DNA from: a virus
Strand: one strand, 5' to 3'
Virus record (IMG/VR): IMGVR_UViG_3300042731_001024
Coordinates: 1-35,003 of that record
DNA: 35,003 bases
In this document: piece by piece, positions 1-3,899 of the stretch
How positions within the stretch are numbered: the first letter of the stretch is position 1
Layout of the letters: each line of letters starts with the position of its first letter
Position numbers and translations under genes: made by a program
The notes under the pieces: generated by a model
Seen by the model: the letters and a program-made list of their open reading frames with translations, nothing else
Told to the model about the DNA's origin: nothing
Database searches by the model: none

Positions 1-382
1 CATTTATATTCGCCTTTCTTATTTTTGAACCAGCACCTGAAGCGAATCGTGCTGTACCTCTTGCCATCCGAATCGCCATTTTTGATTTAGATGGGTCGGG
101 GTCATAATATGCTTCGTCAATATAGACGATGGAATGTTCGGTTAGTGCGAGTTCCTCTTCGTCTAAGAATTCGATGAGCATTCTACCGTTACCAGTTCGT
201 GCTTCATCGTATATGAGTACATCACTTCCTTGTGACACTTCAGTGTCATTGTTGTCACGAATTAACGTACCAACACCTGAGTACTCTTTAACATCACCTA
301 TGGGGTTAGCGTGAACTAACCCCACCAATGATAAATTAAGAATCGTTAGCTGAATCTTTTTGATTAAGTTGGATAACTGCAT
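1..382 (-). CDS. FecR-domain exported protein (3' end outside window)
   Basis: The reading frame opens with an ATG at 382 and stays open to base 1, giving 127 codons without a stop. It overlaps the end of the curlin-like gene by 47 nt in another frame. Residues 1-25 look like a signal peptide with a basic start (SNLIKK), a hydrophobic core and a VHA cleavage site. The following residues, roughly 30-120, match a FecR domain: GTLIRDN, a TGNGRMLIEF segment, EHSIVYIDE, then a YDPDPSKSKMAIRMARGTARF stretch. In bacterial FecR proteins these segments form small beta repeats in the periplasm. I infer a periplasmic partner of the CsgG/CsgF/curlin-like set because it is last in that gene run. Its function is unknown, and no cognate FecI sigma factor is visible. 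Confidence 0.72.
   Translation of the reverse strand, partial: MQLSNLIKKIQLTILNLSLVGLVHANPIGDVKEYSGVGTLIRDNNDTEVSQGSDVLIYDEARTGNGRMLIEFLDEEELALTEHSIVYIDEAYYDPDPSKSKMAIRMARGTARFASGAGSKIRKANIN
301..324 (-). other. Perfect 9-bp hairpin inside the FecR-like gene
   Basis: TGGGGTTAG and CTAACCCCA flank a 6-nt loop. The hairpin lies within the codons for the end of the predicted signal peptide, about 60 nt after the start codon. No T-run follows on the minus strand, so it is not an obvious terminator. It could slow translation or attenuate transcription (inference). Confidence 0.45.
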
Positions 383-1070
383 TGTCTGAAGTAACATCTA
401 ATACAATGATACCAGCAGGACTTGAACATCCTGTTGCACCTGTTGGACAAGTACCTGATATCTGATTTATATCTACGTCAGCACTATCACCAGTTAAGTC
501 AACTGTAAGTGAATGTGCTTCGTCATTCTGCAATGTGTTAATGTTATTTGAATCTCCAGTAACTTCGAAGTTCCATACAACATCATCACTCTCCCAATCT
601 ATATCAAAAACGTTTGAACTACCGATTAGAATCAAATCTGCATCTAATCTTTCTGCACTAAAAGCATAACCTTGGTCAAGGTCGAATGTATTACTCGAAC
701 CTGTAACGTCAAAGTTAATATCTGAACTGTCAGCACTTCCGATATATCCAATATTCCAATCGACTTCATTTGAGTCACCAGTAAAGTCCAATTTATAGAC
801 TGAACTATCTGACACAACAGGCCCAAATAGAACGTTGTTATTTCCTACGAAATCTAAATCAAATTCTAAACTAGAACCAGTGATACTCATTGCAGATAAA
901 CTACCTGAACTTGCATCGTCACCACCAACTTTGTTACCAAAACCTATTTGGTCTACGTAAAGTTTTAAGGTGTCACCAGTCTGAGTGATTTTGATTTCGT
1001 TATCATCAGTGGATTGTGCGAAAACTAAAGATGTCGACATTAATAAAATTAAACTAATTAGTTTCTTCAT
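336..1070 (-). CDS. Secreted curlin-like (CsgA/CsgB-like) repeat protein, candidate amyloid substrate
   Basis: The 244-aa protein starts at an ATG with an AAGGA ribosome site and begins with a signal peptide (MKKLISLILL..., cleavage near VFA at residue 18). The mature part is acidic and made of about eight imperfect units of 20-27 residues. Each has alternating hydrophobic residues around a G-x-x-N or G-x-S turn: GFGNKV, GNNNVL, GDSNEV, GSSNTF, GSSNVF, GDSNNI, GDSADV. Curlin repeats of CsgA/CsgB share this G-x-x-N core but normally carry flanking Gln/Ser ladders. Here Q appears mainly near the C-terminus (INQ, QLNQ). A CPTGATGC loop holds the only two cysteines. It sits directly after csgG and overlaps it by 17 nt. 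I infer that it is the substrate of the phage CsgG/CsgF pore; amyloid formation is not proven. A generic beta-solenoid is the alternative. Confidence 0.68.
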   Translation of the reverse strand: MKKLISLILLMSTSLVFAQSTDDNEIKITQTGDTLKLYVDQIGFGNKVGGDDASSGSLSAMSITGSSLEFDLDFVGNNNVLFGPVVSDSSVYKLDFTGDSNEVDWNIGYIGSADSSDINFDVTGSSNTFDLDQGYAFSAERLDADLILIGSSNVFDIDWESDDVVWNFEVTGDSNNINTLQNDEAHSLTVDLTGDSADVDINQISGTCPTGATGCSSPAGIIVLDVTSDNAVIQLNQKDSANDS

Positions 1071-2034
1071 TTTCGATTTCCTTTTCGATTAAAGGATGTT
1101 TAGCATTTGCACCGTTATATTGATGTGGGTGCCTATGTCCATCCTCGATTACCCAATAGCCTCTATCATGCCCTTGGTATATTAATTCCAGCACCGCCGC
1201 TTCAATTGCAGTTCTCACTGCATATGTTACGGATTCATTATTACCCACACCGTCTTCATACTCCACTAGTTGAGTACCTTGTTCTATAAACCTGAAGACA
1301 TCTCCAGTAGAACCATAAGAAAGGATAGTCTTTCTTGTTTGGACGTTCAATAATACTTCACCAGTTAAAACAGACACAGCTCTCATAGAAACGGTTACTG
1401 CATCTCTCCTATACTGTTTTACATATCCAATGCCAAGTGTCCTTGCGCCTCGTCCACCTGACTCTAAATTGGTATCATAACCAATTACTCCCCCTTCTAT
1501 TATCATACCAGCGAATAGAAGTGGTTGTAAACCTTGTGGGGTTTCCCCCGTTGACCTTGCGTAGTCGTCTCTTGCACTACGTATAATTTGTCTCTCACGA
1601 ACTAGATGGTCAATCCCGTTCCTTTCTGCAACTCTAAACCATGTACCACCACCTGCTGTCTTGAGTGCATCGATAACCATCTCGACACCACCTTGCGTGA
1701 CTGCAGTTGAGAAGTCTGCAATTCCTTCTCTTGCCTTTCGTTGACCAGTCTTATCTTGAAACTGATACACTGCAACGATAGGTCTTTCTTGTGCTTTAGG
1801 TAAAGCAAGAAGTTCTAGATAACTTGGTAGTTTTACAACTTCGGGATTATCGACACAAATATATTTTCTTGCCATCGATTTTTGTACACCCGTTACTACG
1901 TCCTTATTCCATCCTTCAGCATACTTTCCAGCACGGTCATTACAATCTCTAGGTTGGTCACTCCACTGAGGGAATGAAGCACAGCCTGTCAACAAAATGA
2001 CACTCAGTAGTAGGGAATGCAATTTACGTACCAT
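1054..2034 (-). CDS. csgG: CsgG-like outer-membrane curli secretion lipoprotein
   Basis: The 326-aa protein starts at an ATG with a GGAGG ribosome site 6 nt upstream. Residues 1-18 form a lipoprotein signal with lipobox LTGC (Cys18). The body follows the CsgG family closely: VAVYQFQDKTGQ, the FSTAVTQG segment, VERQ-like VRERQIIRSARD, an IIEGGVIGYDTN strand, the SGGRGARTLGIG hairpin, KTILSYGSTGDVFRFIE and a C-terminal GHDRGYW motif. In Escherichia coli, CsgG is a nonameric lipid-anchored beta-barrel pore that exports curlin subunits across the outer membrane. The length is about 50 residues over the usual, through an N-terminal insert rich in charged residues and a longer C-terminus. It lies between csgF and the curlin-like gene, as expected for a working export unit. 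A phage role in lysis, superinfection exclusion or cell aggregation is possible but unproven. Confidence 0.93.
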   Translation of the reverse strand: MVRKLHSLLLSVILLTGCASFPQWSDQPRDCNDRAGKYAEGWNKDVVTGVQKSMARKYICVDNPEVVKLPSYLELLALPKAQERPIVAVYQFQDKTGQRKAREGIADFSTAVTQGGVEMVIDALKTAGGGTWFRVAERNGIDHLVRERQIIRSARDDYARSTGETPQGLQPLLFAGMIIEGGVIGYDTNLESGGRGARTLGIGYVKQYRRDAVTVSMRAVSVLTGEVLLNVQTRKTILSYGSTGDVFRFIEQGTQLVEYEDGVGNNESVTYAVRTAIEAAVLELIYQGHDRGYWVIEDGHRHPHQYNGANAKHPLIEKEIENEETN

Positions 2035-2036
2035 TT

Positions 2037-2516
2037 CTAGCCTCCATCGGGGTCTTGTGCAAAATTACCAGTTCCTACAGGTATTTCTACAATAGTTTCA
2101 GAACCATCTTCTGCAACGATTGTTAGTCTGATAAACTCAGCACCTGATTCATCGGTAATAACTTCCCATGTGATAGTGTTTCCTTCTAGAATAAAGGAAC
2201 CGAATCCAGCAGGATTATCATTTGCAAACATAGACTCAACTAATTGTTTTGCAAACTGAGCATAGATTCTGCTTTCTAGGTTACGTATAAATTTAGCGAG
2301 TGTAGAGTTTTCTGCTTCTCTCTCTGCTGCTTTACGAGCAGCCTCAAGAGAATCCTCTATCGCCTTTTTACGTGAATGTTCTTGGTTCTCGATTGTAAGA
2401 TAATGGGCACCAGTGCCTATTCCCGAGAAACTTGGGTTTTTAAACTTATGAACGATTTCCGTAGCGGATGCGTTTACCCCTACGAACATCATTGTGATTA
2501 ATAGTATCTTTTGCAT
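2037..2516 (-). CDS. csgF: CsgF-like curli assembly factor
   Basis: I chose the ATG at 2516 (159 aa) because it has a GGAG site 8 nt upstream and gives a clean signal peptide (MQKILLITMM..., cleavage near NASA at residue 18). The mature N-terminus reads IVHKFKNPSFSG, the CsgF hallmark F-x-N-P-x-F segment that plugs the CsgG pore, followed by an alanine- and glutamate-rich helix (about 45-85) and a beta-rich C-terminal half (ITWEVITDE, FIRLTIVAEDG, TIVEIPVGTG) as in CsgF. In E. coli, CsgF binds CsgG and couples secretion to nucleation at the cell surface. The stop is 2 nt before the csgG start, so the pair is translationally linked. Its first 71 nt overlap the end of the radical SAM gene. Confidence 0.9.
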   Translation of the reverse strand: MQKILLITMMFVGVNASATEIVHKFKNPSFSGIGTGAHYLTIENQEHSRKKAIEDSLEAARKAAEREAENSTLAKFIRNLESRIYAQFAKQLVESMFANDNPAGFGSFILEGNTITWEVITDESGAEFIRLTIVAEDGSETIVEIPVGTGNFAQDPDGG

Positions 2517-3312
2517 ATAAAATCTCCACAGCATTAATAAGTTCTACACCTTTTTTGTAATTCTTAGAATCAACTTCGGGTTTTAGACTTGACCAATTCT
2601 CCATCTTCGGAGGCCATGGACATTTCTTACACATGTCTAAAGGAGTGTCACGTTCTACATAACTTACAACATCCTCTAAGTTTTCATAACTACACAAATC
2701 TGATTTTTCATTCATCGAGATTGTGCAATGATATAATCCCTCATTGGTTAATGTTAGGCAATTATCTTTTTGCCAACATGCATTCCAATTTTCTTCTGCC
2801 GTATTCTGTTTACCTTCCCCATATTGTTCAAACATATTCTGAGGCCAGTATTCAATGTCGACATACTTTTTTAAATGTTCATGTAATCCTGAATGTACAA
2901 TCTTTTCATCGATTGGCATATTTGGATACACCGACATTATTACATTATCAAACAATTTAGTTGTTTCTATTACACTAGGTGTAAAATTCAATCCGTTTGT
3001 TACAAGAGTCAGTTTCTTGTATAGCCCCTTTTGAGTTCTCAAGTAGGTAACTATATCGTTAAACTGTTTGTGTAGTGTCGGTTCACCACCCAAAATTTTT
3101 AACTCTTGAACAGTAACACATAATCTGTTCAAGTTTGCAACTATGTCTTTGACATCTTGTAGTGTCATAAGACCTATTGTTACTTTACCCTTATAATCTA
3201 AAACACTACATCCTTTGCAGTTTAGATTACAAGCATTAATAATGTATAAGTCGTAACTACCTTTTAGTAGTTTTCTTTTTTGTTTGTTCAAGGGCTTTCT
3301 CTGCTTCTGCAT
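2446..3312 (-). CDS. Radical SAM protein with SPASM-like C-terminal cysteines
   Basis: The protein carries the radical SAM cluster motif CNLNCKGC (C-x3-C-x2-C, about residues 28-35 from the ATG at 3312), an ILGGEPTLH segment for SAM binding and a TNGLNF strand. This is the expected order of a radical SAM barrel. The last third has extra cysteines (ACWQKDNC, HCTIS, LCSY, MCKKCPW), resembling SPASM or Twitch regions that hold auxiliary iron-sulfur clusters in peptide-modifying enzymes. No substrate is identifiable. The start is uncertain. An upstream GTG/TTG-type start would extend it to about 3354, and ATG 3312 already overlaps the previous gene by 56 nt. The 3' end overlaps csgF by 71 nt. The position in the curli-like run suggests modification of a co-encoded protein, which is inference. 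Confidence 0.82.
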   Translation of the reverse strand: MQKQRKPLNKQKRKLLKGSYDLYIINACNLNCKGCSVLDYKGKVTIGLMTLQDVKDIVANLNRLCVTVQELKILGGEPTLHKQFNDIVTYLRTQKGLYKKLTLVTNGLNFTPSVIETTKLFDNVIMSVYPNMPIDEKIVHSGLHEHLKKYVDIEYWPQNMFEQYGEGKQNTAEENWNACWQKDNCLTLTNEGLYHCTISMNEKSDLCSYENLEDVVSYVERDTPLDMCKKCPWPPKMENWSSLKPEVDSKNYKKGVELINAVEILYAKDTINHNDVRRGKRIRYGNRS

Positions 3313-3559
3313 CCTTGAGTACTTCTTGTCTTGCACGATACTCAAGAACGACATCGACTTTCTGTTGTAACCTAATCATATCTTGGTCTAACATACGAGT
3401 TTGGTCGATAACACGAATCAATGCCATATGCATTTCTTCCATTTCGGGGTCTATCTTTTCTCCGATAAACCACCACACATAATATATGAAATAACCCATG
3501 CCCATCGCCATGACGATTGGGAATCCGTACTGAGAGACTAAACTAATTACATCTTCCAT
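3257..3559 (-). CDS. Small membrane protein, UviB/BhlA-like (paralog 2)
   Basis: The 100-aa protein starts at the ATG at 3559, which shares bases with the TGA of the preceding gene (TGATG). It begins MEDVISLVSQYGFPI, followed by one membrane segment (about residues 13-33, with MAMGMGYFIYYVWWFI). A charged helical, probably coiled-coil region follows (MIRLQQKVDVVLEYRA), ending in a lysine tail (KKKTTKR). The N-terminal GFP-then-transmembrane pattern resembles UviB/BhlA holin-like proteins. It shares start sequence, length and architecture with its upstream neighbour, so the two look like a tandem duplication. A lysis role fits the location near a holin-like gene but is not demonstrated. Confidence 0.72.
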   Translation of the reverse strand: MEDVISLVSQYGFPIVMAMGMGYFIYYVWWFIGEKIDPEMEEMHMALIRVIDQTRMLDQDMIRLQQKVDVVLEYRARQEVLKDAEAEKALEQTKKKTTKR

Positions 3560-3855
3560 CAATCTCTCCTTACGTCAAGTTTTCCATCTTCTATAAAATT
3601 TTCAGCACGTGCAACTCTCTCGATGTCGGGTCTAAGTTCTAATGCGGCTGATACCAACATATCAATCTTAATCATTTCATTCGACATCGTTCTTGCACGA
3701 TTTTCTAGAGACTTACAGAACATAGTTAACGTTTTTATTTGGTCAACTATACCCTCTAGTATCTGCTTGATTACTAGGAATATAAAGAATCCCATAACGA
3801 GACCACCCGCTACTGGAAATCCTAATTCACTTATCAATAATACTACGTCTTCCAT
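3559..3855 (-). CDS. Small membrane protein, UviB/BhlA-like (paralog 1)
   Basis: The 98-aa protein starts at ATG 3855. It begins MEDVVLLISELGFPVAGG and has a single hydrophobic segment (about residues 10-38, GLVMGFFIFLVIKQIL). A helical region with alternating charges follows (ENRARTMSNEMIKIDMLVSAALELRPD). It is the first gene after a terminator and a TATAAATA late box. That box ends only 6 nt before the ATG, so there is no room for a normal Shine-Dalgarno site, only a weak AGG. It pairs with the following paralog. Hetero-oligomer formation or a holin/antiholin relation are possible readings, neither shown by sequence alone. Confidence 0.7.
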   Translation of the reverse strand: MEDVVLLISELGFPVAGGLVMGFFIFLVIKQILEGIVDQIKTLTMFCKSLENRARTMSNEMIKIDMLVSAALELRPDIERVARAENFIEDGKLDVRRD

Positions 3856-3869: not shown

Positions 3870-3899
3870 TAAAAAAAGGGGCAACCGAAGTCGCCCCTT
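3870..3899 (-). terminator. Rho-independent terminator with UUCG tetraloop
   Basis: On the minus strand, AAGGGGC and GCCCCTT frame an inner G-A-C / G-U-U helix capped by C(UUCG)G, giving about 10 bp. A T7 tract follows. It ends transcription coming from the holin-like and SAP-like genes, and the late promoter box begins at once after the tract. Confidence 0.9.

Follow-up and report, generated by a model that had tools for sequence, protein, structure and literature searches.

The window (the whole stretch of 35,003 nt that was analysed) belongs to a T4-like myovirus, based on matches to major head, portal, sheath, terminase and helicase proteins. Among the matches listed for its sheath protein, the closest cultured phages are the pelagimyophages Mosig and HTVC008M and the OM43 phage Melnitz, and these related phages point to a SAR11-type host. 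At the beginning of the window, on the minus strand, is a predicted CsgA/B-like subunit gene (336..1070, ATG start, 244 aa, referred to as curlin 1), assigned from Pfam PF07012, the AlphaFold (AF2) model and annotated homologues. The original prediction had placed a curlin-like gene at exactly these coordinates, immediately behind csgG, and the two ORFs overlap by 17 nt. The predicted signal peptide also looks Sec-type as judged by eye (MKKLISLILLMSTSLVFA followed by Q; residues 1-18, 1017..1070, minus strand), with cleavage at about A18/Q19; A18 is kept in 66 of 67 homologues, and residues 1-21 have a pLDDT < 50 in the AF2 model. The by-eye signal peptide and the linkage to csgG and csgF are both features of the curlin class.

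The csgG gene (1054..2034, minus strand) encodes the outer-membrane curli secretion channel lipoprotein, with a lipobox LTGC (PF03783, E 5.5e-49; E about 1e-46 against the E. coli CsgG structures 3x2r/4uv3), and csgF (2037..2534, minus strand; PF10614, E 2e-12) encodes the surface chaperone of the CsgG pore. Both genes are intact and adjacent, and CsgG and CsgF of a type VIII (curli) secretion system are present. The window CsgG also weakly matches NCBIfam HfaB, the Caulobacter holdfast anchoring protein (E 4e-6). Within the module csgE is absent, with every gene between csgF and the FecR gene assigned otherwise. Just upstream, a radical SAM protein (2446..3354, minus strand; PF04055, E 1.5e-10) adjoins the module as at most a putative member; few of the fetched relatives have it. 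An intrinsic-terminator-like hairpin followed by a T run (3876..3899, minus strand) lies upstream of the gene run. Between this hairpin and the curli genes are two small, adjacent and overlapping minus-strand ORFs (3257-3562 and 3559-3855) with an N-terminal membrane-like segment and similar size and start, possibly the result of a duplication. On the other side of curlin 1, a secreted-looking FecR-domain protein (2..397, minus strand) runs off the contig end (PF04773, E 0.004 for the fragment and 7e-9 for the full-length FecR of the relative L001); due to this truncation, the C-terminus of the window FecR is taken from relatives.

The complete order csgF-csgG-curlin1-FecR-curlin2-cyclase is invariant across the 80 fetched loci in which it was recovered, and most of the remaining csg loci have the same order interrupted by contig ends. 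Second curlins are far more variable than curlin 1. Compared to ten relatives, curlin 1 has a dN/dS of 0.09-0.16, with csgG similar, and is under strong purifying selection.

Repeats, surface and predicted fold of curlin 1

Comparison with curlin-repeat profiles, suggested as a check in the original prediction, places curlin 1 in Pfam Curlin_rpt (PF07012; 23 bits, curated cutoff 20.7), a profile matched by 47 of its 51 relatives (E <= 0.01), while the NCBIfam CsgA and CsgB profiles match weakly. Judged on its sequence, the product of 336-1070 is a curlin-repeat protein. The approximately eight repeats that had been predicted can be placed, in a register set by hand, as eight strand-arc-strand units in which motif b begins at residues 35, 68, 101, 127, 153, 175, 197 and 231; the spacing of 22-34 residues and the predicted fold agree with the strand-arc-strand repeats of ~23 residues and the beta-solenoid of the curlin class. 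The claim that the repeats share a G-x-x-N turn holds for six literal instances (G43, G76, G98, G124, G150 and G172; 1.75 expected from shuffles of the same protein, p = 0.0035), but the other turns read G-D-T-L, G-S-S-L, G-D-S-A and S-D-N-A.

The full canonical N-x-I-x-I-x-Q kernel is present in the first repeat only (residues 24-41, NEIKITQ-TGDT-LKLYVDQ; 948..1001, minus strand), a canonical curlin repeat. Across 16 divergent phage and bacterial homologues, including the chromosomal Caulobacteraceae, N24, Q30, G32, Q41, G43 and N46 are invariant, as are G49, G76, N79, G98, G194, Q203 and S205, and 11 of these thirteen residues occupy curlin turn or ladder positions of the hand-set register (the exceptions being G49 and S205). 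Identity to distant clades is highest in the first repeat (46%), lowest in the middle (25%) and 34% in the last repeats. The last repeat (residues 222-237; 360..407, minus strand), with AF2 strands at 221-227 and 232-238, ends in x-I-x-L-x-Q, and its Q237 is present in all 67 close homologues. The first repeat is likely the exposed N-terminal edge of the protein and the last repeat likely the C-terminal edge.

Between these ends the Gln ladder is sparse. In the curlin 1 register Gln occurs at position 7 in repeat 1 only and at position 18 in repeats 1, 4, 6, 7 and 8, as opposed to the E. coli-type full Ser/Gln/Asn ladder, in which every repeat has Gln at both positions. Among 81 relatives from the window clade, Gln fills position 7 of the G-x-x-N units in 14% of cases and a hydrophobic residue in 75%, compared to 74% Gln in a set of two curlins from one alphaproteobacterial locus. 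In the degenerate curlin class the N/Q columns may carry hydrophobics (PMC10192328), and the Gln-poor phage curlin 1 fits this class. The acidic surface noted in the original prediction is borne out by a pI of about 4.05 and a net charge of about -34 for the mature protein, with D/E at 47% of the outward positions flanking the G-x-x-N turns. Outward positions are acidic in 37% of cases among the 81 window-clade relatives, 19% in one alphaproteobacterial locus and 13% in the Caulobacteraceae. The proposed contrast with bacterial curlins therefore stands in degree, with the Gln ladder largely replaced and the face acidic, but does not extend to the single Cys pair, as the chromosomal Caulobacteraceae relatives also have one.

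The Cys pair forms a disulfide-capable arc (C208-PTGATG-C215, CPTGATGC; residues 208-215, 426..449, minus strand), and both Cys of the C-x6-C loop are kept in 65 of 67 distinct close homologues. A pair peculiar to the window protein was considered and rejected: one is present in every curlin-1 (96 of 96) and curlin-2 (51 of 51) protein, in different arcs in different or distant clades. E. coli CsgA engineered to carry a long-range disulfide (63-140) no longer forms amyloid (PMC7264389), but both Cys of the phage pair sit in a single arc, and so local a bond need not have that effect.

An AF2 model built on 51 relatives predicts a beta-solenoid (mean pLDDT 73.7, pTM 0.71), the fold that had been put forward with structure prediction as its check, and the predicted strands coincide with the hand-placed curlin register. 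The best matches amongst predicted viral structures are phage proteins annotated as ‘Curlin associated’ (E 1.3e-7, TM 0.74). Sequence searches of the PDB with the single protein and with a profile matched no chain, including no solved curli structure, a Foldseek search of the PDB with the model returned only E-values above 0.1, and PHROGs holds no family for curlin 1. Against unrelated beta-helices, VIA-align gives Z 13-16, which indicates a shared solenoid arrangement and nothing more. A left-handed solenoid is expected for the curlin class; the model, which derives from a shallow alignment and is unreliable as to hand, superposes at 2.5-5 A on right-handed parallel beta-helices such as SufB/D and pectate lyases, and poorly, at about 11 A, on the left-handed LpxD/GlmU. 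Shallow alignments are known to yield wrong-handed AF2 curlin models (PMC10192328).

The same likeness to monomeric parallel beta-helices (Z 13-16), together with the hydrophobic core, the Asp-rich face and the disulfide-capable arc, is what would be expected if curlin 1 were a monomeric, non-amyloid surface solenoid acting as a secreted adhesin or decoy. We consider this unlikely, as the protein has curlin motifs at both ends with no obvious capping structures, and its first repeat is the most invariant.

Export, assembly and the module FecR

Curlin 1 is probably an exported phage curlin that would pass through Sec and then the phage-encoded CsgG/CsgF pore, fold extracellularly into a beta-solenoid of eight rungs and stack, via curlin-type end rungs, into surface fibres. 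In the middle rungs a hydrophobic core and an Asp-rich face have taken the place of the Gln ladder, with the curlin signature retained in the first rung and the last strands. The combination of a degenerate middle and curlin-type ends suggests that selection has acted on a folding monomer whose ends can polymerise. The most plausible role for such a fibre, on an infected host presumed to be of SAR11 type, would be to capture cells or exclude superinfection, both of which have been put forward in published work. Counting against a fibre, amyloid formation could suffer from the missing Gln ladder, the module has no csgE, the hand of the AF2 model is unreliable and no solved curli structure matched by sequence. 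Infected cells have shown no fibre, and the Melnitz authors observed no clumping (PMC9004378).

Curlin 1 could instead be a minor or nucleator subunit (CsgB-like) that caps or seeds fibres consisting mostly of a Gln-richer curlin 2, an alternative that we regard as less probable but deserving serious weight. Its middle repeats are degenerate, Gln at ladder positions is higher in curlin 2 (37-49%) than in curlin 1 (14-28%), and the HTVC008M homologue is annotated as CsgB, though annotation by itself cannot separate CsgA from CsgB. Against a nucleator role, some loci with sequence beyond FecR yielded no identified curlin 2, whereas curlin 1 always follows csgG.

A module devoted to the pore has also been proposed for Melnitz and the pelagimyophages (PMC9004378, PMC7029224). 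Here CsgG would be a gated pore that times lysis or serves uptake (a pinholin or importer) and the curlin a plug or remnant. The lack of a CsgE gate in the module is in keeping with this proposal; yet dozens of phages retain two curlins and FecR beside the pore, all strongly constrained, although a pore function needs none of them, and this is the least probable of the explanations for curlin 1.

The least expected feature of the module is the FecR protein encoded between the two curlins. Module FecRs have a signal-peptide-like N-terminus and a curlin half-repeat at the C-terminal end (e.g., GGQENAITINQTN in HTVC008M and NGGGTVINVTQD in the Caulobacteraceae). The strict half-repeat pattern occurs in 93 of 93 distinct module FecRs and, with the addition of L165 (for which the csg genes lie beyond the fetched stretch, with a curlin and a cyclase beside its FecR), in 94 of 94, a count that is not independent evidence since these proteins are homologous. 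Identity amongst module FecRs drops to 30-35% between distant members. The pattern is found in none of 74 other FecR proteins (without csg genes) and in 19 of 1796 other ORFs. In the model of one module FecR, a linker of low confidence (about residues 214-304) separates the FecR domain from six C-terminal strands (pLDDT about 84), the N-terminal part resembling the signalling domain of the FecR-family PupR (Z 15.4) and, more weakly, the ‘cell surface anchoring domain’ 5ix9 (Z 7.3, 1.8 A over 72 residues).

The module FecR has been interpreted as an iron-citrate regulator (PMC9599517), but its architecture would be better suited to anchoring or sensing a fibre. The cyclase of the HTVC008M module carries a CHASE2 domain, and in Burkholderia a biofilm operon is known to combine a secreted FecR protein with a CHASE2 sensor (PMC5192318). 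We offer as a tentative and rather doubtful proposal that the module FecR is a structural part of the fibre system, not an iron regulator, in which a folded periplasmic FecR domain is joined by an acidic, flexible linker of ~90 residues, able to thread CsgG, to a C-terminal beta-domain whose half-repeat docks on the fibre; its function might then be that of a retention plug or an anchor, or it might signal the fibre load to the neighbouring CHASE2 cyclase. If true, FecR would represent a curli anchoring arrangement that is absent from the cited descriptions and common to phages and Caulobacteraceae.

Relation to known curli systems

A predicted surface-amyloid system is thus carried by phages that infect the most abundant bacteria of the ocean, while the hosts themselves lack it. 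The host as supplier of the system was considered and rejected, with CsgF detected in just two of 147 genomes, in the family of one Pelagibacter-labelled MAG; each lies on a short contig (14.6 and 23 kb) whose module is phage-like in its low GC and gene order, and which is therefore probably misbinned phage. Further low-GC contigs with the curli module (L164, L165, L166, L168, L169 and L172-L174), assigned to MAGs of Flavobacteriaceae, Pirellulales, Rhodobacteraceae, Maricaulis, Sphingobacteriales, Saprospirales and Planctomycetaceae, also look like misbinned phage. The locus offers a well-constrained candidate fibre subunit for direct testing. Specific testable handles beyond those in the cited descriptions are its register, the conservation of the first and last repeats, the disulfide that shifts position between clades and the half-repeat of FecR.

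A cellular version of the phage module, chromosomal and with FecR and cyclase, is represented by two Caulobacteraceae MAG contigs (L170:5028-11085 and L171:5095-11115; 54-57% GC) on which it is flanked by ordinary bacterial genes. These share csgF-csgG-curlin-curlin-FecR with a CHASE2/cyclase-type gene, the Cys pair and the FecR half-repeat, but differ in having both curlins before FecR and an outward face of Ser/Thr, not Asp. FecR as a general feature of alphaproteobacterial curli loci was rejected, as none of four other csg loci has FecR or a cyclase within about 9 kb.

Amongst phages, csgF, csgG and a ‘curli-associated protein’ have been described in pelagimyophages (PMC7029224), the curli module in Melnitz (PMC9004378), and the full module (CsgA/B, FecR and cyclase) in podo- and myophages, where it is expressed in metatranscriptomes and hypothesised to function in sibling capture or superinfection exclusion (PMC9599517). 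Phage-module curlins were published from 2020 to 2022 for pelagimyophages, pelagipodophages and the OM43 phage Melnitz. The original suggestion of a new class of phage-encoded amyloid or solenoid is not sustained, because homologues in HTVC008M, Melnitz phages and uncultured phages are already annotated as curlin, the phage module is published and the degenerate class is recognised (PMC10192328). The HTVC008M protein (AGE60350, ‘curlin minor subunit CsgB’) has the same module order, the same size and 31% identity over residues 24-203, and differs in a Cys pair located in another arc and in slightly less Asp; in the HTVC008M module, curlin 2 (L081:7708-9033) has a PA14 domain N-terminal to the curlin repeats, which suggests an adhesive tip. 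The curlin associated repeat proteins of Melnitz belong to the same module, with 28% identity and a different Cys position. With the degenerate (D-class) CsgA homologues (PMC10192328) the window curlin shares incomplete motifs, hydrophobics in the N/Q columns, arc insertions and a beta-solenoid, though it is phage-encoded and its outward face is more acidic than in the bacterial curlins compared. The window curlin is a strongly acidic, Gln-poor version of the kind known from SAR11 and OM43 phages.
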